Source: Eunapius fragilis (lineage: Eukaryota > Porifera > Demospongiae > Spongillida > Spongillidae). From it: a stretch of 64,000 nt of DNA. The position numbers and the translations under genes were made by a program. Below are positions 21,640-40,310 of the stretch, piece by piece; position 1 is the stretch's first letter; each line of letters starts with the position of its first letter. The stretch is from positions 2,220,349-2,284,348 of the forward strand of contig OY811973.1 in the NCBI GenBank assembly GCA_963681505.1, in the 5' to 3' direction. The notes under the pieces were generated by a model. That model was not told the DNA's origin and did no database searches. It was given only the letters and a program-made list of their open reading frames with translations.

Positions 21640-21905
21640 AACTCGGCAGGTGCGTCACAGGCAGCTGCAGGAGGATGAGGAGGACCCGCAGCCGCCCCAG
21701 GACGAGGACCCGCGGCCAAGGACCCTGCCCCAGGAGGAGGACCCGCGGCCAAGGGCCCTGCTCCAGGAGGAGGACCCGCTGCCAGGGGCCCTGCCCCAGG
21801 AGGAGGACTGGAGGACAGAAGGCCTGACAGCCGCGGCAGGCGGCCCAGGCCCTTGCATAGAGGCCCAGGTCATCGAGACCGAGGCCGTGGAGCAAACATT
21901 TTAAA
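21640..21905. repeat. GC-rich Pro/Glu-coding minisatellite
   Basis: A 27-30 bp unit around GACCCGCGGCCAAGG / CCAGGAGGAGGACCCG repeats about six times and stays open in several frames. Its base composition (over 65% GC) contrasts sharply with the AT-rich palindromes that begin at 21911. No start, splice or domain evidence supports a protein. Confidence 0.6.
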
Positions 21906-21910
21906 TATAC

Positions 21911-22282
21911 ATATGTACAGTTTAGTAGTTTTAAAGTTTTTAAGGTTTTGACAAAAATCCTATATTTAGCACGGTAAATGTCACATTTACACGTGCTAAA
22001 TATAGGATTTTTGTCTCATTTACTTTAAAACCTTAAAAACTTTAAAACTACTAAACTGTACATATATGTTTATTTAAATGAGACAAAAATCCTATATTTA
22101 GCACTTCTTTTCTGTTAGTAACAGAAAAGAAGTGCTAAATATAGGATATTTGGCTCATTTACCCTTTTCTCAAAACCTTGTTCCCCTCCTTTTTACACCG
22201 CCTTTGCCTCCAATTCCTATATCCCACCAACTTTCTCGTTAGAGAATGTTTTTCTTTACTTGTTTCCTTGTTTCCTCTGTTT
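21911..22282. mobile_element. Nested palindromes / foldback repeat, left side of the 19-kb block
   Basis: A near-perfect palindrome at 21911-22068 has arms starting TGTACAGTTTAGTAGTTTTA with GACAAAAATCCTATATTTAG inside. A second hairpin follows at 22074-22160. From 22150 to 22282 a unique arm (AACCTTGTTCCC, CTATATCCCACCAACTTTCTC, TAGAGAATGTTTTTCTTTAC) is the inverted counterpart of 40030-40120. The same palindromic core CAAAAATCCTATAT recurs in both places. Confidence 0.8.
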
Positions 22283-23095
22283 TTTCATTTTTAATCGATT
22301 AATAATACTGAAAAGTGCCCCCCCCCCCCAGCTTCACGAGCAGATGCCCGCTTTTGTTTGGGATCACTGTAAGGAACGCGGGAGAATTATAACTCGTCGT
22401 CTGCTCTTCTCAGTCTTTTGTTTGCATAATTCTAAATATACGTAAATGTCGCCATGGGAACGCTTTATCTAACCTAGGTATTACGTAATGAATACGTATG
22501 TCCGTTTCATGCTTTATTCATATATATGATACCTGAAGATTTCCTTCCAAGAGATTCTAAAGCGATTGGTATAATTTGCGCTCTTTAAAACCATTCCTAT
22601 CCGGAGTTATACTCACCCGAGAAGAAGACGACGACGACGACGACGAAGGAAAGATTTGGCCTGGGGACGAGGTAAAACACGAACTTATTGTTCTTTTAAA
22701 GCAAACAGTTTGAGGACTGGAATAAAGCATTAAAATGACCGTCTTTGCCTTCTGGTTCGACTGCAGCAAAGAGCAACACTATCCGTTTCTCGGTACGCGA
22801 GACCGCTTGGAAGTTAGCACCACATTCCTCAGCTCCACATTCCAATTAATTTGTAATGTGATTAAGATGCGGCCTGACGATAATCATTAATGCGGCCAAC
22901 ATTAATCGCGGCCAGAACGTTCAGGTACATGTAGCTAGCTAGCTTGCGCAGAAGGAAAACAGCCTACTTACCAGTTCACGACACGGCCTGTAATATGAGC
23001 CGGGCTTCCACATATGGACTGGAATCACGGTACTTTTTGTGTCCAAGGCGCTTGGCTAACCCTACCAAGTTGCACAGAAATGAGACTTTTTATTG
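22283..23095. other. Inner flank of the large element, no gene called
   Basis: Contains a short (GAC)n stretch at 22625-22645. At 22780-22850 a segment, read in reverse complement, resembles 39746-39800 (GCTGAGGAATGTGG, GCTAACTTCCA), an inverted-repeat-like match. An open frame at 22944-23162 has a zinc-finger-like YFLCPRRLANPTKLH stretch but no supporting splice evidence. Confidence 0.4.
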
Positions 23096-23099
23096 TACA

Positions 23100-23940
23100 G
23101 GTGAACCCGACCATCTGATGAGGTCTGTCTCACGTATCATTAAAATGGCCCCTCCCCCTTGAGAACCATGGCCATGTCACACATGTGAGAGTGAGTTTAC
23201 CCCACTGTCTGACCAAGGTAAGGGATGTTCTGGTGATCCTGCACCACCAGAGCATCTGATGAGGCCTGTCTCACATTTCTGTGCATGTGTCATTAAAATG
23301 GCCCCTCCCCCTTGAGAACCATGGCCATGTCACACATGTGAGAGTGAGTTTACCCCACTGTCTGACCAAGGTAAGCGATGTTCTGGTGATCCTGCACCAC
23401 CAGAGCATCTGATGAGGTCTGTCTCACATTTCTGAGCATGTGTCATTAAAATGGCCCCTCCCCCTTGAGAACCATGGCCATGTCACACATGTGAAAGTGA
23501 GTTTGCCCTACTGTCTGACCAAGGTAAGCAATGTTCTGGTGATCCTGCACCACCAGAGCATCTGATGAGGTCTGTCTCACATTTCTGAACATGTGTCATT
23601 AAAATGGCCCCTCCCCCTTGAGAACCACGGCCATGTCACACATGTGAGAGAGAGTTTACCCCACTGTCTGACCAAGGTAAGCGATGTTCTGGTGATCCTG
23701 CACCACCAGAGCATCTGATGAGGTCTGTCTCACATTTCAGAACATAAGTCATTAAAATGGCCCCTCCCCCTTGAGAACCATGGCCATGTCACACATGTGA
23801 GAGTGAGTTTACCCCACTGTCTGACCAAGGTAAGCGATGTTCTGGTGATCCTGCACCACCAAGCATCTGATGAGGTCTGTCTCACATTTCAGAACATGTG
23901 CCATTAAAATGGCCCCTCCCCCTTGAGGACCATGGTTATG
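23100..23940. repeat. 153-bp tandem array, about 5.4 copies
   Basis: The landmark GATGTTCTGGTGATCC recurs at 23224, 23377, 23530, 23683 and 23836: exactly 153 bp each time. Because 153 is a multiple of three, all units share one phase. In the plus strand each unit contains a pyrimidine tract plus AG, a 54-nt open segment reading EPWPCHTCESEFTPLSDQ, and a strong donor-like CAAG|GTAAGC. The last unit is degenerate. The array starts 114 bp past the stop codon of the 40-exon gene, on the opposite strand. Confidence 0.92.
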
Positions 23941-24053
23941 TCACAAGTCTTAGAGGTTAAAGGGAGTTTTAGAGTGTCTTCACTTCAAGCAATGTTCTGC
24001 CTGTGTGCATCTTTTTTCTAAGCATTTCACTTATTCACAAAACAGTAATGCTC

Positions 24054-24888
24054 TTAAATCTGCATAGGTAGTTTTTGGTTCAAAACGCATGTTTTTGCTT
24101 CATCCCAGGTCAATCTATAAGCTTCCATAATGACACCAGTGATTATCTATTAAGTGAACAGGAAAAAATTTTTTAAGCCAAAATTGATTAGTATTACTTA
24201 CTTCAGGCCATACGATAAATTTATTGACTTCAGAAAGTGTCATGGATGCATTCTTACCCACATCATCCTGAATGCCCATAAGGTACAGCTCAATCTCATG
24301 TACCTAGTATAGTATGTGTCAGTGAGTAGTACATATATAGTATTAAACTTTAATTTAACTCACCATATCACTGCATGTTTCTAGAGGCCAATATGGATTT
24401 TCTTTTCTTAACGTTTTGATATATGGGATGTGATTTTTAAACATTGACATCTGTCTACCAGTTATAAAGCATCGTATTAGTGGCTGTAAAGTGAAAGAAA
24501 AGTATATTTACATGGATCTAAGCATGCATGCATGCATGCTCTAAGTACCTCCATCTTCTTCACCACTTGTCGTATTGATCTTCTTGTAAATGGTGATTCA
24601 CTTCATTTGTGATGAGTATTGGAGCTAAAGCTAAGAAACAATTGCACACATTTTCTCATTACCTTTCTTTCCTCTTCAGAAGATGATGTGGGAAACTTCT
24701 GATATAGTGGTCTCGTCCCCACTTCAGGGCAGTAAGGTCATCAGGGTCAGGACCAGGATTTTCGAAGTCAGGAACCAAAAAGTCATCAGAATGAATATCA
24801 GAATTCAAAGATATAGGGCTTCCAATTTCGATGTCATCATCATCGTCATCACCATCTACTTCATTCACACTATGACATTCAGTCACTC
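24054..24888 (-). CDS. Block 5 of the 40-exon gene: acidic linker and C-terminal domain
   Basis: Exons 24663-24888, 24549-24600, 24364-24483, 24202-24303, 24054-24146 (stop TAA). The first is strongly acidic (a run of Asp followed by SDDFLVPDFENPGPDPDD). The remaining four give a basic, helix-rich segment (SPFTRRSIRQVVKKME, TLRKENPYWPLETCSDM, ITGVIMEAYRLTWDEAK) of no family I can name. A BTB/BEN-like or DNA-binding role is possible but unsupported. Confidence 0.65.
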
Positions 24889-27800
24889 CTGAAAAAGTTT
24901 ACAACTATACACATGTATTTACACGACACAACTGGGTGTGTTTCACCTTGAAGTGCATCATCATCTGCTTTCTGCAGTGGATAAAGTGCACCAACGGACA
25001 ATTCAAATGCAATCTGTTTTCTGAAGCAACTCATCATTTTCTGTGGATAAGCTTCTATTATGCCTAGTGCTTAGTGTTTTATATCCTACTTGTGTGAATA
25101 CGCAGTCCTGGCTTTCCACTTGCAATCTTGCTGCCTGTATAATATTATGCATGGTTAAGAATGCTTTCATAGAGTGTTGAAATCAAAACTTACAAGACAC
25201 ACACAAACTCCACAGTCATATGAATTGGTTTGCCTTGGTGAATTGCTGGCCTACATCATTGGAAAATCCCTTATTAGAGTACATTACAACTCCATGCAAG
25301 GCACTGAATACTATTGAATCAGAATACTTCCAGTCTAAATGACTGAGGTGTAACTTCGTTCTATGTTGCATTTCATTGCAAAGGTACAGCCTATATAGCA
25401 TAGAAATGTTTTACTGACTTGTACATTAAGAATTTTGTGCCACTAGCTTACCAAATCCAGTTTACAGCATCATCATCAGAACAGTGCATTGAATCAAAGC
25501 TTTGAATGAATTGAGCTTGTGGATGGACTACCTAGTATTTTATCATCAGGTTTTATCACCTTTTGAACTCTGGTACAAACTGAAGTTTACCAGTAGACTC
25601 CAATGATTTGGTTTGTGTACAGGAAAGAACAGTTTCTGGTAGCTGCATACATCCTCACCCTAGAGTCAAAAATGCATTCTCATAAGCCATATTGTAGTTT
25701 CATGCATGTGATTCACTTTTGAGTGCCTTCTGACTGATAGGTAGCCTCGCGCTTTGAGCAGGGGAATAAATGTTGGGTCAAAGACCTTAATTCTTTTCCC
25801 ATTCTGTTGTAAGAATGATAAGATGTAACTTTAATAATATGATTAAGCAAACCTTAGTAGCAGCCTCTTGCAATAGTTCCATGTATGCAGAAATGATCTA
25901 CATGGGTTTTCATAGAATTTTTCTGATGAGGTTAATACCATACCTTTGAGTCAAGTTGATCGTCAAACAGTAGTTGTTGTAAGGCATTCTTTTCAAGTTG
26001 GAACACTTTGTTTGGTACTGGAACTTTGTTGTATAACTTTTTGAAAACAGTCGTGGTGCATGTAAATCTGAAAAGCATTTTCCTAAGTACCTCAGCTTCA
26101 ATACTTGATGGTAGGCCGCTGTAAATCTGGTTTAGGCATTCAAGGATATTCATGTTCAATGCATGTATGCATTCTAACTCACAAGTTTTCCATTTGGAGG
26201 ATGAATAGTAAACTCTCTTTGAAGAAATGTCTGCAGAAGTATTATTACTATCTTGTGTTGCTTGCACATTTCCCCCTTACCTTTGACATTGATGTGGTGT
26301 AAACTGCAAGACATACATTCTCCTAAAAATGTAAAGGCTACATTGTAAGACTGTTATGATTTTAACACTACAACCTCAACTATTCTTGAGGAATGAAAAT
26401 CAGTAGTAGTTTTTATACATATCAATGAATCATCATAGTGAATCCACTCCTTTCTGTTTTTCACGTAGCATGTATCTGTAAAATTGATTCAATGGGATGA
26501 AATTAAATGAAAGATATTCTTATTCATTTACAGTGGCCCTCTGCAATGTCTTTTCCATGGTGCACCTGTATGTGTGGATATGAAGGGGAATAACAAACTA
26601 CTTGCTGATTTTTACTAACCAGGATTGCACATAACTGATAGAAATGGCTCTCTTGGGAACTTGAGTGTGCAAGATTGCAAGCCCTGGATAGTGTATCATT
26701 TATTAAATACAGCACACATAAAACAATTATTAAACCTTGGAACTTTAATTCTGTTTTTCAGTTTTCTGGCTGGAACACTGCAACTTACCCTACTGCAGTT
26801 CAAAATCAATATGCTTGGAAATGAAACGTGTTTCTCCTGAACAGCTAATTGCTTGTGACAGACATCACAAAACCTGCACATGATATGATAAACATATCAG
26901 CATTCATAGTCATATTCCTGTAGACCTACTTTTGGGTACACAAATTATCCAACAAAGCATCAAGCCAGGTGGTCAGTATATCCATCATACTAATATCCTC
27001 TGGTTGACCTTCAGCGCTGAATGGAATCACAGTCCAACTTGAAGAATCATGCACTATCTGGTTTATAATGTATTATAAATGATATATAAAACACAGGGTT
27101 TTTCACCTGTGAACAGCATGTAGCCATTTTGTTGACTGTTGTTGTGAATTCTTTCTTAAAGTTGTTTGCTATCTGACATAATACTAATCTTAAACTAATG
27201 CTTTACAAGGATGTATTGTAATGAAATACCTCTGATCCTGATAACAGTACTTCAAGCAGTGCTGTTATTCCATCGACACAGTCATTTTGCAATCCACAGT
27301 TGAGGGAGTATGCTTTCTCCTTTTGTAGTGCACGCTATATTTGGCTACTAAAGTATCATTCACTACAAAATTCATTTTACTTACAACTAATTTTGAGGCA
27401 TTGCAAGGGTGAACTGAACTTGTTTCAAGTTCATCCATAACACTCACAAATTCCTTCTGAACAGAATTGAAGCACTGCACATCCATTGCTACATGCATGC
27501 CATGTGATTATTTGTAAGAGGGAGCAGAATCTCGTTTTAAATGGGTGGCTTACCCTTCATCATCAAATACAATGGAGTTGCAGCAAGAGCCTGTAATGCA
27601 GCATTCATCCAACACGTATATGTTGTATTATGCAGTCCCTTGTTCACTCTTCTGGAAATGTCCAATTCTATGCAAAGGGGCTAGGGGTGCAGAATAACAT
27701 ACATAATAACACTGCTAACTTTCAAATTAAACCGACCATAATCTCTTGGTCTTCAGCAAATCTGTAGGTGGAGTAATGATGAAAGAGCTGTAGTATTATT

Positions 27801-30800
27801 TCTAACTAGACACCAATTTAATTATCTACATGAATACAATTTGCCCAACGGTTTTGAAAAGAGATACATCAATTAGTATGGCATAGCATAGCATAGATAC
27901 TTTTTCAATCAAACCTTATCCTATAACATACTGTGTTTGATGAGCAGTTTTCTTTTCCATGGTGGAAGAAATTTCAACTCTGATGCATGTAATGCAAAGA
28001 TGTATGTCACTACATCAATTGTCTGTTTCAGCTTACACATGCTGAAAATCGGCATCTTCTTTGGTCTTGTTCATAACAATTTCTTTGCTGCTTATAATGA
28101 TAAAAAATGAATAGAATTTAACAATGTTCACACATACTCATTTGGTTGATCTGGAGCTGTAGTGATGTTTTCTAGTGTTGCACTTGCATTGCATAGTTCT
28201 TTAGTTGGGGGGTCGTTTTTAGCTGTCAGACTCGTGGTGTTTAACTCTGCTGTTAGGGTATCATTTTCTACAGTGTGACATCTGCAATGTAGATGTGACA
28301 AATGTCCAACAGAAACTACATTTGCTTACATATGGGTGAGTGGTTTTGACGGCTTTTGGAAATGGCCATGAATTCTTGATGTCTTCAATGGCCGTTTAGA
28401 CCACTTCTCTTTCAAAGGGCGAGAAGGTTTGGTCTTAAGAGATAACTAAAAATGTGATAAACTCATTTAACTGTCATTAATGTCAAAACACACAATACCT
28501 TTACATGCTTTCGTAGCTTATCTTGCATATCATCATAAAACTGCCTCTGTCTTGCAATGATGATGGGATAATGCTGTCTCAAAAAAACATCTGGTCTTAA
28601 ATGCTTCTGAGGATGGTCAATCTTCTTTAGAATAAAATTCCATGCTTCTATAGTCCCAGCAGTTCTGCTTAACTCTGTATGCTAAATAGGGCAATAAACA
28701 GCAGACAATGCATTCTTGTATAAAAGCTTACAATAGTTGTAATTGGCAATGGTTTCTCCACCTTGTGTCTATCAAGGTTTCCTATTTATGTGCAAAGTTA
28801 ACAAGTGGGTTACATTGTAAACTTTAAACACTTACCAAGCAACATACATGTCCAGAATGGTGCCATTGGAAGCCACTTCGTTAAAAGTTCATTAAAATAG
28901 TCAGGATTATAGTTCCTATTCTCCTTCTCTCCATTATCATCATCATCATCATGTACATGTACTTCCTCCATTTTTCTATTGAAGTACATGCTAAATGGTT
29001 GCAACTTAAGTGACATTTCATCATGAGAAAAACTATTAAACTGCTCCGAGTCTTCATTTGATTCACTGAGTGTATCATCATTCACAATATCAGGGAAAAG
29101 TGGCTTCTTATTGAGATCATTAATAATATCAACAATTCTGTTATATGCAGATTTCATATTGATGGACACCTTCTTTGAGTAGTAAAGACATTTTAGCAGA
29201 CCAAGTCGCATCACCAAATCTTTTAAGGTAGTAGAGTTAACAAGAATTGAAAAGCAAAACATGGAAAAAGAGTATTCTTCATTCTTAAACCTGAGTAAAT
29301 GATGATAGATGCAATGTGATTATTAATGACATGACATAGACACCTCTTCCATATAAGTGTGAATATTATTACGCTTTTAAACATTATTCATTAAACCTAC
29401 CATTTCTTGCAATCCTTTTTAGCCGAATTCATCACGTGACTTGTACAGGCATGAGGTAGTATCTTTTCAAAATCCTTACATTGTCCTGCACCACTAACAA
29501 TTCTAAATGTTCGTAACAGGTAATCATTAACTGTCTCCATGTTAAAAACATGTAAAAAGCTGATAAGTAGCACAATGCTGCGATCAATTATGACCCTTAT
29601 GGGTTTTATGGATGCACCAGAGCCAAACAATAAGCTTTCGGCCCGTCTAAAACTTTGTAAAAAAGAACTGACTGCCAGTACTGTTTGGTCACAAGATATA
29701 TATTCTGCAACTGGAATAGGAGGTTTGCCACTAACAGGATGCTTAACTACAAGACTGTAGTAGTAGCACACAGAAGGCTTTGTGCCCACATCCTTTGGAA
29801 CAGTAACTATTGTACCTGTGGCATCACAGAAAACTGGAGAGTATTTTGCAACTTCATGGTAGAGTCTCACACCAGTTTCATTGAAACATATAACTCCAAA
29901 TGGAGAAGCTTGTATGTACTGAATATAACCTGGAATTGGTGAGTCAGGGCGATGAAGTCCAAATTTAGAAGAGCTCACAGTATCTTCATTGATTAATTTG
30001 CGTTGTAAAATCATAAGGGATGTGATCAAGTCTCGATCATCTTGCTGCAGCAATCTGGTCTCTGATGAAATTTTTCTAATTACTGCTTTCGAACATCCCA
30101 CACCATCTCTATTTCCTGCAGCATATTGCTCAGTTTCTAGGTTCATCAATCGGCTCAGGTACTCTTTAGATGGAGCGACTTGTGTATTCTGAAACCACTG
30201 GTGAAGTTTGCTTCTATTGGTACTGCTGAAATGACGAGCATGGGTTTCACCAACCTGATGATCTACATTTCCCGAAAATTCTACACGTACTGTCACATTA
30301 TCAGGATTGATTTCCTCACTAGAGACTGAAAGTATAGCAATCACATTACAGGTAGAAAATGTGCAATATGCAGTTGCCCTGAAAATTGCAAGCGACTGTT
30401 TGCGAGAATTTGATTTCTTTCTCCAGTGCTTTTTGAAAGCAAATGAACAGCACTTGTTCAGTTGCAATAATCCATCAGCTAGGGTATGTACCCATGATGG
30501 CTTTATACTGTCTCCGACAAATGTGTCATCCCATTGCAATTTTGAAATTTTAAAGGACCCTGCTTGTAGACTGATTTTAGTAAATGAGCTACTATTAGGC
30601 AAATGTGAAGATCGAGCAAGACAGCCTGCAGTCGTTCTTGAGATAGCTGGATCAACCTGTAGTTATTAATTACCTACATTCATTTATCTTAAACAAGGAT
30701 GTGTTTCACTGCATGCATGCATGCATGCATGCATCCATGCATCCATGCATCCATGCATGCATGCATGCATACATGCATACATCCATACATACATACATAC

Positions 30801-33409
30801 ATACATACATACATACATACATACATACATACATACATACATACATACATACATACATACATACATACATACATACATACATACATACATACATACATAC
30901 ATACATACATACATACATACATACATACATACATACATACATACATACATACATACATACATACATACATACATACATACATACATACATACATACATAC
31001 ATACATACATACATACATACATACATACATACATACATACATACATACATACATACATACATACATACATACATACATACATACATACATACATACATAC
31101 ATACATACATACATACATACATACATACATACATACATACATACATACATACATACATACATACATACATACATACATACATACATACATACATACATAC
31201 ATACATACATACATACATACATACATACATACATACATACATACATACATACATACATACATACATACATACATACATACATACATACATACATACATAC
31301 ATACATACATACATACATACATACATACATACATACATACATACATACATACATACATACATACATACATACATACATACATACATACATACATACATAC
31401 ATACATACATACATACATACATACATACATACATACATACATACATACATACATACATACATACATACATACATACATACATACATACATACATACATAC
31501 ATACATACATACATACATACATACATACATACATACATACATACATACATACATACATACATACATACATACATACATACATACATACATACATACATAC
31601 ATACATACATACATACATACATACATACATACATACATACATACATACATACATACATACATACATACATACATACATACATACATACATACATACATAC
31701 ATACATACATACATACATACATACATACATACATACATACATACATACATACATACATACATACATACATACATACATACATACATACATACATACATAC
31801 ATACATACATACATACATACATACATACATACATACATACATACATACATACATACATACATACATACATACATACATACATACATACATACATACATAC
31901 ATACATACATACATACATACATACATACATACATACATACATACATACATACATACATACATACATACATACATACATACATACATACATACATACATAC
32001 ATACATACATACATACATACATACATACATACATACATACATACATACATACATACATACATACATACATACATACATACATACATACATACATACATAC
32101 ATACATACATACATACATACATACATACATACATACATACATACATACATACATACATACATACATACATACATACATACATAGATTACATTACATTACA
32201 TTACAATACATTACATATATACCGGAATGAGATCAAGATGTGTGTCTTGATTTTGTATTGCCCCTGTAAGAAACAAATTCATGTATATCTATCTATCATG
32301 CTTCATATCTGTGCTAACCATCTGTATAGAAGGGTCTCAGAACACCAGCAGCCGTACATGCAGGACATTTATAAGTCTCTATGTGAGAAGCTGTGTCTTC
32401 AGTAACTCCAACACAATCTCCGTGATACCAGCCTCCACAATAATCACAAGCAATCATAAATCTAATCATTCAGTGCAAGTGTTATGAAAACTATATAGTA
32501 TTCATTACAATAACAAAAACGAACCTTGAAGGATCATAGTGTGTTTCACACACGCAGTAGATGTTAGCAGCATTCTCTTCATGATCGTCGTTGTCCTCAA
32601 TATGGTCAGGATGAGGTTCATCATTGTCTTGGTCCTCACCATCACTAGGTCCTTGATCCACACCATCACTAGGCCCTTGGTCCACACCATCACTAGGTCC
32701 TTGGTCCACACCATCACTAGGTCCTTGGTCCACACCATCACTAGGTCCTTGGTCCACACCATCACTAGGCCCTTGGTCCACACCATCACTAGGTCCTTGG
32801 TCCATACCATTACTAGATCCTTGGTCCACACCATCACTTCGTCCTTCATCCACAGTCTCTACATCATTAGCTCCTTCCTCCTTACTCTCGTTAATCTCTT
32901 CATCCATATGACTACTGGTCTCTTCTTGTACATGATCAGCCCCTTTTCCATCTGTAACCAGAACTGGTTTTCCTGCTTGGTCTCTAGTGCAGGTCTACAT
33001 GTATATTCATTACAACATGTGTACACACCCACATTATAGCTTTGCATGTTTTTCATCAGTAATTTTGTAACATCATTAATACATTAACACTGTAAAAGTA
33101 AATTTATATACCTGACAGGGATGGCTTGTACCAATTTGTTTTTGCACACATAAATCAGATCGTTTGTGGTACCAGTATGAAGCAACTGCTGCCACAAACT
33201 TGAAGGATGGATTTGATTTTCCAGACAAAACTTGTGCAGCTAAGTACCAGTAACCACTTGGTCCATTGCATGATGCATCTTTTGGAGGTGTCTCCCCTGT
33301 GTCAGCAATGTACTTTACAAGAGCACCAGGTTCAAAATTATGCTTTCGTCTAATAGGTGGCTATGAAAGTAATAAAATAACAAAACTTAAGCTGAAGTTA
33401 ACTTACCAT
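24054..33409 (-). CDS. 40-exon gene: PHD finger + NOF/Mutator-like transposase + USP-like + Ulp1-like peptidases
   Basis: One continuous reading frame over 40 exons by my joins (5,646 nt; 1,881 aa), every junction GT..AG and phase-consistent. It starts with an ATG that is the last codon of exon 1 (33407-33409) downstream of a TATA box, and ends at TAA 24054-24056. Order: N-terminal domain, acidic octapeptide repeats, PHD finger, transposase, linker, C19-type and C48-type peptidase domains, acidic linker and a C-terminal domain. The five blocks are annotated separately. Most introns are 40-120 bp; one holds a 1.47-kb microsatellite (30715-32182). Intact catalytic boxes and absence of frameshifts argue for recent function. 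It may be an autonomous giant transposon gene or a domesticated one. The weakest joins are exons 28039-28090/27932-27977 and 26736-26873/26620-26683, where alternative sites exist. Confidence 0.75.
24947..26230 (-). CDS. Block 4 of the 40-exon gene: Ulp1-like (C48) cysteine peptidase domain
   Basis: Exons 26183-26230, 25944-26126, 25853-25897, 25717-25803, 25560-25659, 25452-25515, 25291-25390, 25194-25250, 25090-25134, 24947-25040. Hallmarks in order: KLFFPVHKPNHWSLLV (catalytic His), then QFIQSFDSM (Asp), then the 57-nt exon encoding PRQTNSYDCGVCVCL with oxyanion Gln and nucleophile Cys, followed by RKQIAFEL, the helix after the active site. The His-Asp-Gln-Cys order and spacing match SUMO/Nedd8-type peptidases. 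Ulp1-like domains are known companions of some Mutator-like plant transposases; here it follows a USP-like domain in the same protein. Confidence 0.82.
26281..27899 (-). CDS. Block 3 of the 40-exon gene: ubiquitin-specific protease-like (C19) domain
   Basis: Exons 27838-27899, 27737-27787, 27554-27680, 27385-27488, 27230-27334, 27107-27172, 26930-27057, 26736-26873, 26620-26683, 26532-26565, 26375-26475, 26281-26322. The Cys box is GLHNTTYTCWMNAALQAL (family GLxNxGNTCYMNAxLQxL). GLQNDCVDGITALLEVLL matches the QQDAxEFLxxLL box. FCDVCHKQLAVQEKHVSFPS is the second zinc-ribbon CxxC strand plus the following lP.iL segment. The His box is split over a splice: VHHGKDIAEGH then YTCYVKNRKEWIHYDDSLI, which supplies His and the final Asp. 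All three catalytic positions are present, so an active deubiquitinase-type enzyme is plausible. About 300 residues, the small end of the family. Confidence 0.82.
27932..30656 (-). CDS. Block 2 of the 40-exon gene: Mutator/NOF-like transposase core and linker
   Basis: Exons 29401-30656, 28836-29290, 28732-28781, 28499-28681, 28330-28445, 28138-28281, 28039-28090, 27932-27977. The 1,256-nt exon has an N-terminal Cys/His region (FRATAYCTFSTC, VDHQVGETHARHF), a linker (QYAAGNRDGVG), then SPVFCDATGTIV with a likely first catalytic Asp, KHPVSGKPPIPVAEYI, VIIDRSIVLL with a likely second Asp, and HACTSHVMNSAKKDCKKW, a C..H end resembling the MULE C-x2-H region. This pattern fits MULE/NOF (foldback)-related transposases as I know them; the exact subfamily is uncertain and I could not fix the catalytic Glu. 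The following exons carry an Asp/Glu-rich stretch and basic helices (IARQRQFYDDMQDKLRKH). Confidence 0.7.
30715..32182. repeat. (ATAC)n / (CATA)n tetranucleotide tract of about 1.47 kb
   Basis: More than 340 almost perfect CATA units, with a few GCATGCAT and CCATG variants at the left edge and ATTAC variants at the right edge. It fills an intron of the 40-exon gene. Apparent ORFs of nearly 500 codons in several frames are artefacts of the repeat. Confidence 0.98.
32223..33409 (-). CDS. Block 1 of the 40-exon gene: N-terminal domain, acidic repeats, PHD finger
   Basis: Exons 33407-33409 (start codon), 33112-33360, 32525-32994, 32319-32461, 32223-32263. The second exon gives an 83-residue domain (FEPGALVKYIADTGETPP, GYWYLAAQVLSG) that I do not recognise. 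The third has nine acidic octapeptides (GPSDGVDQ) and the first Cys pair of a PHD finger (IYCVCE). The fourth completes it: ACDYCGGWYHGDCVG ... YKCPAC, a full C4-H-C3 set resembling the CXXC1/TAF3 class that reads histone H3 lysine-4 methylation. The donor GATG|GTTAGC and the small exon GAIQNQDTHLDLIP carry the frame to the transposase exon in phase 0. If that donor is not used, the frame ends at a TAG nine bases further, giving a separate PHD protein. Confidence 0.72.
32628..32848 (-). repeat. 24-bp coding repeat, nine acidic octapeptides
   Basis: The minus strand encodes GRSDGVDQ, GSSNGMDQ, six copies of GPSDGVDQ and GPSDGEDQ. Units are almost identical at DNA level, indicating recent expansion or homogenisation inside a coding exon. 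Confidence 0.9.
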
Positions 33410-33465
33410 CACAAAGTAACTTGCAAAAAGCACAAACGCAATGGGACTATGTAGAAGTCTATGCA

Positions 33466-33473
33466 TTTATATA
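33466..33473 (-). promoter_or_regulatory. TATA box of the 40-exon gene
   Basis: The minus strand reads CCTATATAAATGC, with TATATAAA at these positions. It lies about 57 bp upstream of the inferred start codon at 33409, so transcription would begin near 33440 with a very short 5' UTR. Confidence 0.5.
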
Positions 33474-33479
33474 GGACCA

Positions 33480-33900
33480 AACACAGGCTCCACCCACCAT
33501 AGTTTTCATATCCTGGGATATAGCATGGAGGGAAAATGTACACAGTGGATGGGAAGACCACTCCTCAAAGCTTTGCTTACATTAACAATAGCACAGCTCA
33601 TTGTTCATGCATCCAAATAAGGTCACAAAGTAGAACTATCAGTTTAAGCCACACCTCAGATGTATGTAACATTACATATGCCATAATATAATCACGCAGT
33701 CTCACACCCATACACACTCACACACAACAACATTCATATCAGGTCACACAAACGTCCCCTGGATCAACCAACGTAACGAAAAATATTATTCACACTAAAA
33801 AAGGCAGTTTGGAAACCAGAAACATAACAAAAAAGATAAGTTGAGCAGGTCCATGACAGGAGGTCGTATTGTATGATGAGCTGTTCAACTGAGCAGTTGT
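33480..33900. other. Upstream region of the 40-exon gene
   Basis: About 420 bp between the TATA box and the 173-bp satellite. No open frame or repeat recognised. Confidence 0.45.
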
Positions 33901-33904
33901 TGTC

Positions 33905-36900
33905 ACACCCTCAACTGGTCCAGTGTTCCGGATCCGTGCGTGACGTTGGGTTCCTGGTTGGCACAGGTACACACCTACCCTGTGTGTACATGAAACACCT
34001 CAGAGTCAGATTCAGTGTGCTTTGCAACTCACAAGAATGGCACCCATCTCCACAGGTCGGCTTGAAAGAACTTATTAGTTGTGGTCACTCCCCCAGTGTT
34101 CAAAATCCGCGCGTGACGTTGGGTTCCTGGTTGGCACAGGTACACACCTACCCTGTGGGTACATGAAACACCTCAGAGTCAGATTCAGTGTGCTTTGCAA
34201 CTCTCAAGAATGGCACCCATCTCCACAGGTCAGCTTGAAAGAACTTATTAGTTGTGGTCACACCCCCAGTGTTCAAAATCCGCGCGTGACGTTGGGTTCC
34301 TGGTTGGCACAGGTACACACCTACCCTGTGTGTACATGAAACACCTCAGAGTCAGATTCAGTGTGCTTTGCAACTCACAAGAATGGCACCCATCTCCACA
34401 GGTCGGCTTGAAAGAACTTATTAGTTGTGGTCACTCCCCCAGTGTTCAAAATCCGCGCGTGACGTTGGGTTCCTGGTTGGCACAGGTACACACCTACCCT
34501 GTGGGTACATGAAACACCTCAGAGTCAGATTCAGTGTGCTTTGCAACTCACAAGAATGGCACCCATCTCTACAGGTCAGCTTGAAAGAACTTATTAGTTG
34601 TGGTCACTCCCCCAGTGTTCAAAATCCGCGCGTGACGTTGGGTTCCTGGTTGGCACAGGTACACACCTACCCTGTGTGTACATGAAACACCTCAGAGTCA
34701 GATTCAGTGTGCTTTGCAACTCACAAGAATGGCACCCATCTCCACAGGTCAGCTTGAAAGAACTTATTAGTTGTGGTCACTCCCCCAGTGTTCAAAATCC
34801 GCGCGTGACGTTGGGTTCCTGGTTGGCACAGGTACACACCTACCCTGTGGGTACATGAAACACCTCAGAGTCAGATTCAGTGTGCTTTGCAACTCACAAG
34901 AATGGCACCCATCTCCACAGGTCAGCTTGAAAGAACTTATTAGTTGTGGTCACACCCCCAGTGTTCAAAATCCGCGCGTGACGTTGGGTTCCTGGTTGGC
35001 ACAGGTACACACCTACCTTGTGGGTACATGAAACACCTCAGAGTTAGATTCAGTGTGCTTTGCAACTCACAAGAATGGCACCCATCTCTACAGGTCAGCT
35101 TGAAAGAACTTATTAGTTGTGGTCACACCCCCAGTGTTCAAAATCCGCGCGTGACGTTGGGTTCCTGGTTGGCACAGGTACACACTTACCCTGTGGGTAC
35201 ATGAAACACCTCAGAGTCAGATTCAGTGTGCTTTGCAACTCACAAGAATGGCACCCATCTCCACAGAACTTATTAGTTGTGGTCACACCCCCAGTGTTCA
35301 AAATCCGCGCGTGACGTTGGGTTCCTGGTTGGCACAGGTACACACCTACCCTGTGTGTACATGAAACACCTCAGAGTCAGATTCAGTGTGCTTTGCAACT
35401 CACAAGAATGGCACCCATCTCCACAGGTCAGCTTGAATAGACTTATTAGTTGTGGTCACACCCCCAGTGTTCAAAATCCGCGCGTGACGTTGGGTTCCTG
35501 GTTGGCACAGGTACACACCTACCCTGTGGGTACATGAAACACCTCAGAGTCAGATTCAGTGTGCTTTGCAACTCACAAGAATGGCACCCATCTCCACAGG
35601 TCAGCTTGAAAGAACTTATTAGTTGTGGTCACTCCCCCAGTGTTCAAAATCCACTCGTGACGTTGGGTCCCTGGTTGGCACAGGGACACAACTACCCTGT
35701 AGGTACATGAAACACCTCAGAGTCAGATTCAGTGTGCTTTGCAACTCACAAGAATGGCACCCATCTCCACAGGTCAGCTTGAAAGAACATATTAGTTGTG
35801 GTCACACCCCCAGTGTTCAAAATCCGCGCGTGACGTTGGGTTCCTGGTTGGCACAGGTACACACCTACCCTGTGTGTACATGAAACACCTCAGAGTCAGA
35901 TTCAGTGTGCTTTGCAACTCACAAGAATGGCACCCATCTCCACAGGTCAGCTTGAAAGAACTTATTAGTTGTGGTCACACCCCCAGTGTTCAAAATCCGC
36001 GCGTGACGTTGGGTTCCTGGTTGGCACAGGTACACAGGGTACATGAAACACCTCAGAGTCAGATTCAGTGTGCTTTGCAACTCACAAGAATGGCACCCAT
36101 CTCCACAGGTCAGCTTGAAAGAACTTATTAGTTGTGGTCACACCCCCAGTGTTCAAAATCCGCGCGTGACGTTGGGTTCCTGGTTGGCACAGGTACACAC
36201 CTACCTTGTGGGTACATGAAACACCTCAGAGTTAGATTCAGTGTGCTTTGCAACTCACAAGAATGGCACCCATCTCTACAGGTCAGCTTGAAAGAACTTA
36301 TTAGTTGTGGTCACACCCCCAGTGTTCAAAATCCGCGCGTGACGTTGGGTTCCTGGTTGGCACAGGTACACACCTACCCTGTGGGTACATGAAACACCTC
36401 AGAGTCAGATTCAGTGTGCTTTGCAACTCACAAGAATGGCACCCATCTCCACAGGTCAGCTTGAAAGAACTTATTAGTTGTGGTCACTCCCCCAGTGTTC
36501 AAAATCCACTCGTGACGTTGGGTCCCTGGTTGGCACAGGGACACAACTACCCTGTAGGTACATGAAACACCTCAGAGTCAGATTCAGTGTGCTTTGCAAC
36601 TCACAAGAATGGCACCCATCTCCACAGGTCAGCTTGAAAGAACATATTAGTTGTGGTCACACCCCCAGTGTTCAAAATCCGCGCGTGACGTTGGGTTCCT
36701 GGTTGGCACAGGTACACACCTACCCTGTGTGTACATGAAACACCTCAGAGTCAGATTCAGTGTGCTTTGCAACTCACAAGAATGGCACCCATCTCCACAG
36801 GTCAGCTTGAAAGAACTTATTAGTTGTGGTCACACCCCCAGTGTTCAAAATCCGCGCGTGACGTTGGGTTCCTGGTTGGCACAGGTACACAGGGTACATG

Positions 36901-39600
36901 AAACACCTCAGAGTCAGATTCAGTGTGCTTTGCAACTCACAAGAATGGCACCCATCTCCACAGGTCAGCTTGAAAGAACTTATTAGTTGTGGTCACACCC
37001 CCAGTGTTCAAAATCCGCGCGTGACGTTGGGTTCCTGGTTGGCACAGGTACACACCTACCCTGTGGGTACATGAAACACCTCAGAGTCAGATTCAGTGTG
37101 CTTTGCAACTCACAAGAATTGCACCCATCTCCACAGGTCAGCTTGAAAGAACGTATTAGTTGTGGTCACACCCCCAGTGTTCAAAATCCGCGCGTGACGT
37201 TGGGTTCCTGGTTGGCACAGGTACACACCTACCCTGTGTGTACATGAAACACCTCAGAGTCAGATTCAGTGTGCTTTGCAACTCACAAGAATGGCACCCA
37301 TCTCCACAGGTCAGCTTGAAAGAACTTATTAGTTGTGGTCACTCCCCCAGTGTTCAAAATCCGCGCGTGACGTTGGGTTCCTGGTTGGCACAGGTACACA
37401 CCTACCCTGTGGGTACATGAAACACCTCAGAGTCAGATTCAGTGTGCTTTGCAACTCTCAAGAATGGCACCCATCTCCACAGGTCAGCTTGAAAGAACTT
37501 ATTAGTTGTGGTCACACCCCCAGTGTTCAAAATCCGCGCGTGACGTTGGGTTCCTGGTTGGCACAGGTACACACCTACCCTGTGTGTACATGAAACACCT
37601 CAGAGTCAGATTCAGTGTGCTTTGCAACTCACAAGAATGGCACCCATCTCCACAGGTCAGCTTGAATAGACTTATTAGTTGTGGTCACACCCCCAGTGTT
37701 CAAAATCCGCGCGTGACGTTGGGTTCCTGGTTGGCACAGGTACACACCTACCCCGTGGGTACATGAAACACCTCAGAGTCAGATTCAGTGTGCTTTGCAA
37801 CTCACAAGAATGGCACCCATCTCCACAGGTCAGCTTGAAAGAACTTATTAGTTGTGGTCACACCCCCAGTGTTCAAAATCCGCGCGTGACGTTGGGTTCC
37901 TGGTTGGCACAGGTACACACCTACCCTGTGGGTACATGAAACACCTCAGAGTCAGATTCAGTGTGCTTTGCAACTCACAAGAATGGCACCCGTCTCCACA
38001 GGTCAGCTTGAAAGAACTTATTAGTTGTGGTCACTCCCCCAGTGTTCAAAATCCACTCGTGACGTTGGGTCCCTGGTTGGCACAGGGACACAACTACCCT
38101 GTAGGTACATGAAACACCTCAGAGTCAGATTCAGTGTGCTTTGCAACTCACAAGAATGGCACCCATCTCCACAGGTCAGCTTGAAAGAGCATATTAGTTG
38201 TGGTCACACCCCCAGTGTTCAAAATCCGCGCGTGACGTTGGGTTCCTGGTTGGCACAGGTACACACCTACCCTGTGTGTACATGAAACACCTCAGAGTCA
38301 GATTCAGTGTGCTTTGCAACTCACAAGAATGGCACCCATCTCCACAGGTCAGCTTGAAAGAACTTATTAGTTGTGGTCACACCCCCAGTGTTCAAAATCC
38401 GCGCGTGACGTTGGGTTCCTGGTTGGCACAGGTACACACCTACCCTGTGGGTACATGAAACACCTCAGAGTCAGATTCAGTGTGCTTTGCAACTCACAAG
38501 AATGGCACCCATCTCCACAGGTCAGCTTGAAAGAACTTATTAGTTGTGGTCACACCCCCAGTGTTCAAAATCCGCGCGTGACGTTGGGTTCCTGGTTGGC
38601 ACAGGTACACACCTACCCTGTGGGTACATGAAACACCTCAGAGTCAGATTCAGTGTGCTTTGCAACTCACAAGAATGGCACCCGTCTCCACAGGTCAGCT
38701 TGAAAGAACTTATTAGTTGTGGTCACTCCCCCAGTGTTCAAAATCCACTCGTGACGTTGGGTCCCTGGTTGGCACAGGGACACAACTACCCTGTAGGTAC
38801 ATGAAACACCTCAGAGTCAGATTCAGTGTGCTTTGCAACTCACAAGAATGGCACCCATCTCCACAGGTCAGCTTGAAAGAGCATATTAGTTGTGGTCACA
38901 CCCCCAGTGTTCAAAATCCGCGCGTGACGTTGGGTTCCTGGTTGGCACAGGTACACACCTACCCTGTGTGTACATGAAACACCTCAGAGTCAGATTCAGT
39001 GTGCTTTGCAACTCACAAGAATGGCACCCATCTCCACAGGTCAGCTTGAAAGAACTTATTAGTTGTGGTCACACCCCCAGTGTTCAAAATCCGCGCGTGA
39101 CGTTGGGTTCCTGGTTGGCACAGGTACACACCTACCCTGTGGGTACATGAAACACCTCAGAGTCAGATTCAGTGTGCTTTGCAACTCACAAGAATGGCAC
39201 CCATCTCCACAGGTCAGCTTGAAAGAACTTATTAGTTGTGGTCACACCCCCAGTGTTCAAAATCCGCGCGTGACGTTGGGTTCCTGGTTGGCACAGGTAC
39301 ACACCTACCCTGTGGGTACATGAAACACCTCAGAGTCAGATTCAGTGTGCTTTGCAACTCACAAGAATGGCACCCGTCTCCACAGGTCAGCTTGAAAGAA
39401 CTTATTAGTTGTGGTCACACACCCCAGTGTTCGGAATCTGCGCGTGACGTTGGGTCCCTGGTTGGCTTAGGTACTCACCTACCCTGTGGGTACATGGAAC
39501 AGCTTGTAACCCCAGCTGGTCCAGTGTTCAGGATCCAAGCTAGTCCAGTGTTCAGGATCGGCACGTGACCTTGAGTCCATGGTTGGCACAGGTACACATC
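33905..39600. repeat. 173-bp satellite, about 32 copies, with higher-order structure
   Basis: Repeated landmark CAAAATCCGCGCGTGACGTT with a spacing of 173 bp almost throughout. Exceptions are one unit shortened by 13 bp (about 35117-35277) and two shortened by 10 bp (near 36030 and 36890). A diagnostic variant unit (CCACTCGTGACGTTGGGTCC) occurs at about 35651, 36506, 38053 and 38745: intervals 855, 1547 and 692 bp, i.e. 5 units minus 10 bp, the sum of both, and 4 units. The edges at 33905 and 39430-39600 are the most diverged. The 86-codon frames in every unit are by-products. Confidence 0.97.
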
Positions 39601-40030
39601 TACCCTGTGGCAACAGTACTAGCTCACAGCATCTTCATATAACACGTTGCATAGTGTTTGCTTACGTTCATAACGTGATCTATATTAAGAAGCGCTCGTT
39701 TCGGACGCCCGCCGCTTGAGGAATGTTAAACTTATTCATGCTTAAATGTGGTGCTGAGGAATGTGGGGCTAACTTCCACACGGTGTACGCGAGTTATGCG
39801 CGGGTCGCGATTTTTTAAATGATATTCACGACCCGGGTCAATTCCTACTATCGTAGTTCCTGATTCTCTGCTACATATGAATTGCTTATACACGCGCGCC
39901 TGCCCGATTATACCGCTTGGCCACTATAATACAACACATGGCCACTAAAATGGCCTCACAATGGTTATTGAATAATTAATTGCGATGTTCCTTGTATAAA
40001 TACAAAAATGATATTAAAAAATTGAGGAAA
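39601..40030. other. Right inner flank of the large element
   Basis: A 50-bp segment at about 39746-39800 is the inverted match of 22780-22850. A short inverted pair, GCGGGTCGCGA / TCACGACCCGGGTC, lies at 39798-39840. No gene seen. Confidence 0.45.
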
Positions 40031-40310
40031 CAAGTAAAGAAAAACATTCTCTAAAGAGAAAGTTGGTGGGATATAGGAATTGGAGGTAAAAAGGAAGAGA
40101 ACAAGGTTTTTGGAAAAGAAAAATGAGACAAAAATCCTATATTCCGTTAGCACTTCTTTTGGTTGTTACATGTACATTTGCTAAATATAGGATTTTTGTC
40201 TCATGTTTCTTTTCCAAAAACCTTGTTCCCTTCCTTTTTACACCACCTTTTCCTCCAATTCCTATATCCCACCAACTTTCTCGTTAGAGAATGTTTTTCT
40301 TTACTTGTAA
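40031..40310. mobile_element. 280-bp palindromic foldback element, right side of the 19-kb block
   Basis: The sequence folds on itself over almost its whole length: ACAAGTAAAGAAAAACATTC at 40033 pairs with the complementary end at 40290-40309, and GAACAAGG, GAAAAGAAAAATGAGAC and CAAAAATCCTATAT pair further in, leaving a loop near 40145-40180. Its right arm is the same sequence as 22150-22282. Confidence 0.85.

Follow-up and report, generated by a model that had tools for sequence, protein, structure and literature searches.

A large, probably Mutator/Rehavkus-like DNA transposon of the sponge Eunapius fragilis, with a PHD finger, a transposase and two peptidases in one predicted gene

A stretch of 64,000 nucleotides from the sponge Eunapius fragilis (assembly GCA_963681505.1, contig OY811973.1, positions 2,220,349 to 2,284,348 of the forward strand; hereafter the window, to which all plain coordinates refer) contains a complete DNA transposon of 16,983 bp (22802-39784). 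Within it sits a minus-strand gene, the predicted protein of which joins a PHD finger, a transposase and peptidases of two clans, a ubiquitin-specific protease (USP, C19) and a SENP/Ulp1 protease (C48). The ends of the element, its target-site duplication (TSD), near-identical copies, the exon order, the open frame and the catalytic residues have been observed directly in the DNA. We consider it probable that this is a recently mobile cut-and-paste transposon of the Mutator/Rehavkus-like kind, with one multi-exon gene that works as proposed below.

The original prediction, made from the letters of the window, had regarded the gene as part of a mobile element, and terminal inverted repeats (TIRs), a TSD and multiple copies have now been found. 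A perfect 9-bp direct repeat, GTACGCGAG, which is absent elsewhere in the window, abuts both 40-bp TIRs, with its left copy at 22793-22801 and its identical right copy at 39785-39793. The left TIR (22802-22841, plus strand; gene's 3' side) is identical to the right one in inverted orientation (39745-39784, minus strand; gene's 5' side) at 36 of 40 positions. Each end holds a minisatellite, with a unit of 153 bp in 5.3 copies on the left (23137-23945) and of 173 bp in 32.4 copies on the right (33932-39501). Arrays of 153 or 163 bp lie just inside the end at all 12 left-end loci examined, and arrays of 173-178 bp at all 11 right-end loci examined (a twelfth, L062, was left out).

A search of the same genome (219 Mb, 24 contigs) gave 108 matches to the transposase exon, consisting of eight copies at 97-100% identity and others that, for most of the longer ones, stand at 52-64%. 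Over 1,203 nucleotides, six of the seven further close copies show 0-8 differences from the window copy; the seventh aligned only with gaps. Among the matches listed, both ends were located for six of the eight close copies, one end for the copy on contig C9 and none for the second copy on C17. For 14 elements with both ends, the TSD is a perfect 9 bp in 11, 8 bp in one and absent in two, and its sequence differs from site to site. The family is therefore large and recently active, and not a one-off fusion. The elements without a TSD are a second same-family copy, inverted and 32.6 kb from the window copy (C3:2292725-2311829), and an element at C4:354226-366155. No dN/dS (nonsynonymous to synonymous substitution) estimate was obtained, since none of 276 pairs fell within the dS range of 0.05 to 1.5.

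The single spliced gene that had been predicted with 40 exons and 1,881 codons was rebuilt in nearly the same form by a spliced-gene dynamic programme, as 39 exons on the minus strand from 33466 to 24054 (5,580 nucleotides; 1,859 codons plus one terminal stop), its start being ambiguous between 33466 and 33409. All introns are GT-AG and the splice phase is continuous, so that the exons of the PHD finger, the Mutator-like transposase, C19 and C48 follow in a single open frame, as had been claimed. In the order of the protein, there are an N-terminal domain, acidic repeats, the PHD finger, a WRKY-like zinc domain with an RNase H-like DDE transposase, C19 and C48. When coding potential was scored with generic codon and splice models and without anchors, the gene strand of 24060-29290 reached z 14.6 against 40 dinucleotide shuffles, compared with z 0.1 for the opposite strand and z 1.8 and 1.2 for two flank stretches. 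Supplied motif anchors decided several of the joins in USP and C48, and Ephydatia proteins later supported many joins. As for the two joins singled out in the original prediction, 32223/30656 is in the model, where it was imposed in later runs after an earlier run had selected it among a few sites on offer; at the other, the 27932 donor was retained and joined to 27761 rather than 27838, and the small exon there is uncertain. The intron of the former join (30657-32222, minus strand), defined by a repeat scan and the gene model, is mostly a near-pure (CATA)n satellite of approximately 362 units, and the distance from PHD to transposase varies from 465 to 4303 bp among the eight same-family copies.

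The hidden Markov model check proposed for the joined protein matched PHD (9.8e-8), UCH (3.6e-20) and Peptidase_C48 (7.7e-20) in Pfam, figures that come from spliced pieces with an interim version of a few joins, so that neither peptidase fold was missed; the MULE profile PF10551 gave no match. All features of the gene described here lie on the minus strand. The N-terminal conserved-domain exon (33112-33360) is without a Pfam match, and the next exon (32525-32994) encodes the acidic repeats, a 24-bp tandem repeat, and the first part of the PHD finger, which is completed by a second exon (32319-32461; Pfam PHD 2.9e-9). The nearest PDB chains to the PHD finger include BPTF (8e-17), PHF2 (1.3e-16) and CXXC1 (9.2e-16), and its aligned positions Y, Y, M and W, which we take to be the methyl-lysine cage, are the same as in PHF2. 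Both BPTF and PHF2 are readers of trimethylated lysine 4 of histone H3 (H3K4me3), and we infer from these nearest relatives that the PHD finger reads methylated H3K4.

The transposase exon (29401-30656), recognized by residue and fold comparison, carries the WRKY-like zinc domain and the RNase H-like core with two catalytic aspartates (29825-29823 and 29585-29583) and a CxxH motif (29447-29436). The probable third acid, a glutamate at 28648-28646 in the context TAGTIEAWNxILK, is on a separate exon (28499-28681) and was present at all 28 loci that gave a match out of 30 searched, the window copy among them. Zero Pfam matches were obtained for the transposase in the spliced pieces, and Foldseek on its own gave no significant result. 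The USP exons (26281-27680) have USP36 as the nearest structure (6.7e-10), with Cys (27614-27612), His (26535-26533) and Asp (26434-26432) aligned, and the C48 exons (24947-26230) have SENP2 (5.7e-23), with His (25605-25603), Asp (25495-25493), Gln (25232-25230) and Cys (25214-25212) aligned. The codons of these residues were confirmed in the DNA. Judged by sequence, the UCH domain with its Cys, His and Asp/Asn is assigned to the C19 ubiquitin-specific proteases and the C48 domain with its His, Asp, Gln and Cys to the SENP/Ulp1 proteases. A conserved C-terminal tail (24054-24888) follows.

The same order recurs elsewhere in the genome. It was counted at the first 50 of the 108 transposase matches, with same-strand PHD sought up to 6 kb upstream, USP up to 8 kb downstream and C48 within 16 kb. 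PHD was found at 42 loci, USP at 41 and C48 at 17, with PHD and USP together at 37 and all three at 13. For the 34 longest transposase matches, the PHD exon lies upstream at 33, USP downstream at 31 and C48 at 12. On the opposite strand within 8 kb of the same 50 matches there were no PHD and one USP match, and no match lay on the wrong side. The idea that PHD is part of a neighbouring host gene was rejected, because order and strand are kept across loci. The low count of C48 is due to limited detection, since three subfamilies in which it had been missed all show C48 exons once fetched. These have the C48 His, Asp, Gln and Cys, the conserved tail, and USP exons that include the His (the piece fetched from C12 starts beyond the USP Cys exon). 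The one opposite-strand USP-like match lies 711 bp from the transposase match at C7:2441725-2443211, perhaps a rearranged or nested copy.

Ephydatia yielded five related gene models. Two (P0004 and P0018), which are among the closest homologues, are labelled Ephydatia muelleri, and the other three (P0002, P0003 and P0005) have EukProt names with the prefix Em, presumably gene identifiers of E. muelleri. In P0002, transposase, USP and C48 form one fused model, which runs collinear with that of the window from the transposase to the C-terminus, including the tail, at 46% identity; the alignment has gaps where the P0002 model is without exons, among them the CxxH exon, the exon of the third acid and part of USP. 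P0004 combines N-terminal pieces with pieces of transposase, USP and C48. Between the window and P0004 there is near-identity in the N-terminal exon, compared with approximately 59-75% identity for the transposase pieces, which suggests exchange or strong constraint. The 313-bp left end (22802-23114; loci L039-L050) is 95-99% identical across many elements with transposases of approximately 55% identity, and in two checked elements it lies 5' of the gene and not 3'. The ends of the elements seem to be exchanged as modules.

The position of this family among known transposons has been examined by structure and by profile. The RNase H-like DDE core with CxxH between the second aspartate and the glutamate, and the TSD of 8 or 9 bp, within the range of 8-11 bp for Mutator, agree with Mutator in the broad sense. 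The CxxH motif and the context of the glutamate are Mutator hallmarks, and both appear in a PF10551 MULE of the same genome. PF10551 itself matched neither the window nor any of 35 sequences, and a profile comparison with the genome's own PF10551 MULEs was not significant. These MULEs (45 matches, some of them near-identical copies) are a separate family.

The closest likeness, judged by structural description, is to Rehavkus; this and the following comparisons draw on passages of the cited papers. Rehavkus, an outgroup or branch of Mutator (PMC6446971, PMC10218199), is described with one open reading frame (ORF), a PHD finger, a 9-bp TSD, TIRs of 26-400 bp and a minisatellite before the 3' TIR (PMC6446971). 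The present element has the PHD finger in the transposase protein (by the splice model), one ORF, the 9-bp TSD, 40-bp TIRs and the minisatellite, with units of 153, 163 and 173 bp against 164 bp in the termini of Rehavkus-1_TC (PMC10218199). It differs in size, 17 kb compared with 9.5 kb for Rehavkus-1_TC (PMC10218199), and in host, since Rehavkus is said to be confined to insects and annelids (PMC6446971), and USP or C48 is unmentioned in those passages.

Mutators with Ulp1 domains are described in hydra, lancelet and plants (PMC2836005); they share the Mutator-type transposase and Ulp1/C48, whereas USP is unmentioned in that passage and Pfam MULE is unmatched here. An alignment of PHD domains from Ginger1 and Mutator transposases, described in a figure legend of the same paper, means that a Mutator with both Ulp1 and PHD may already be known. 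The Ginger1-9_HM transposon carries Ulp1 and PHD in one transposase (PMC2836005) but this is of the Gypsy-integrase-like type, and a Trichomonas protein joins peptidase C19 with transposase_11 (PMC2836005), which is another transposase type; USP is unmentioned for the former, and C48 or PHD for the latter, in the passages concerned. In RAG and RAG-like transposons a PHD finger that reads methylated H3K4 serves a DDE recombinase, but that finger belongs to a separate protein, the kelch-repeat protein RAG2 (PMC7204232). PHD, Ulp1 and C19 have thus each been reported with transposases already, and it is the trio of C19, C48 and PHD together that appears new; in agreement with the original prediction, no element with all three was found among the matches listed from the open PubMed Central literature, a search that left subscription papers and Repbase reports outside. 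To our knowledge, RAG systems do not include a C19 or C48 peptidase.

Several observations weigh against one protein with two working peptidases. The third USP residue is Asn and not Asp in the three subfamilies that were read, in one of them in the altered context YNEA, one fetched subfamily has the C48 Asp in FDPL instead of DSL/DSM, and the P0002 model is without parts of the USP domain. The peptidases might therefore no longer act, being carried along as passengers or serving as modules that bind ubiquitin and SUMO without catalysis. We regard this as unlikely, because both catalytic sets are complete in the window, the C48 set is kept in the three fetched subfamilies, and active USPs can have Asn at the third catalytic position. 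Alternatively, the transposon may be real and yet contain several genes, with the PHD/N-terminal part, the transposase and the peptidase part transcribed or translated separately. PHD and transposase are separated by a long satellite intron of variable length, the join of which was imposed, the P0002 and P0005 models are without the PHD part, the stretch of P0004 at PHD is in a different frame from the window reading, and the one-protein reading rests on gene models. On the other side, the transposase exon is without an ATG before residue 171, which lies behind the zinc domain, and therefore a fresh start within this exon would lose that domain. Splice phases are continuous without a stop, the Ephydatia models fuse transposase, USP and C48 (in P0004 with the N-terminal piece), and the order of PHD, transposase and USP is preserved at 37 of the 50 loci. 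Separate genes are accordingly quite improbable in our view, while the presence of PHD and transposase in one protein depends on the splice model. A domesticated host gene family spreading by duplication, which would account for open frames and D-D-E residues preserved between subfamilies at approximately 55-62% identity, was rejected as extremely improbable owing to the TIRs, together with TSDs of 8-9 bp that differ from site to site, at 12 of 14 elements, and to the near-identical copies on different contigs.

For the preferred reading, a transposon with one multi-exon gene, the following mechanism is proposed. Judging by fold and residues, binding of the terminal repeats and the cutting and joining of DNA would be the work of the WRKY-like zinc domain and DDE core, while the PHD finger would tether the transpososome to K4-methylated histone H3; insertion would therefore favour active, CpG-rich chromatin. 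As their domains suggest, USP and SENP may strip ubiquitin and SUMO tags, with the transposase itself, break-repair factors or chromatin close to the element as substrates. We favour the transposase and the break-repair factors as targets, and silencing factors are the bolder option. The fuller version, in which one transposase protein is steered by PHD to H3K4-methylated promoters and erases host silencing or degradation tags by USP and SENP, is possible but rather doubtful.

The composition of insertion sites gives weak evidence of a preference for CpG-rich sites. The joined insertion site of the window element (22302-22801 plus 39794-40293, 1 kb) has an observed/expected CpG ratio of 1.16, compared with a median of 0.45 over 93 flank windows of 500 bp and 0.26 in the gene body of the element. 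Beside 15 insertions the median is 0.92 versus 0.43 in the window flanks (p 2e-5, with one locus as background), and versus 0.72 in their own flanks 1.2 kb away the difference is not significant (p 0.14). In 16 pieces of eight other loci the median is 0.51. Outside both ends of the window element (21900-22270 and 40025-40310) there are AT-rich related inverted and direct repeats, which are a separate repeat family, and a Pfam scan of eight ORFs flanking the element gave zero families above the cut-off.

For transposases with peptidases for ubiquitin-like tags, so far reported piecemeal, a role of these pathways in transposition has been suggested (PMC2836005). The idea becomes testable with a diverse, recently active family that has both peptidase clans and a PHD finger, since the subfamilies are natural variants and the insertion sites can be compared with maps of histone marks. 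One study has E. muelleri among its species and H3K4 chromatin immunoprecipitation sequencing among its assays, which may have covered this sponge (PMC12221973). Rehavkus-like elements would extend beyond insects and annelids, and the element could show how mobile DNA handles the chromatin and the protein-tagging machinery of its host.

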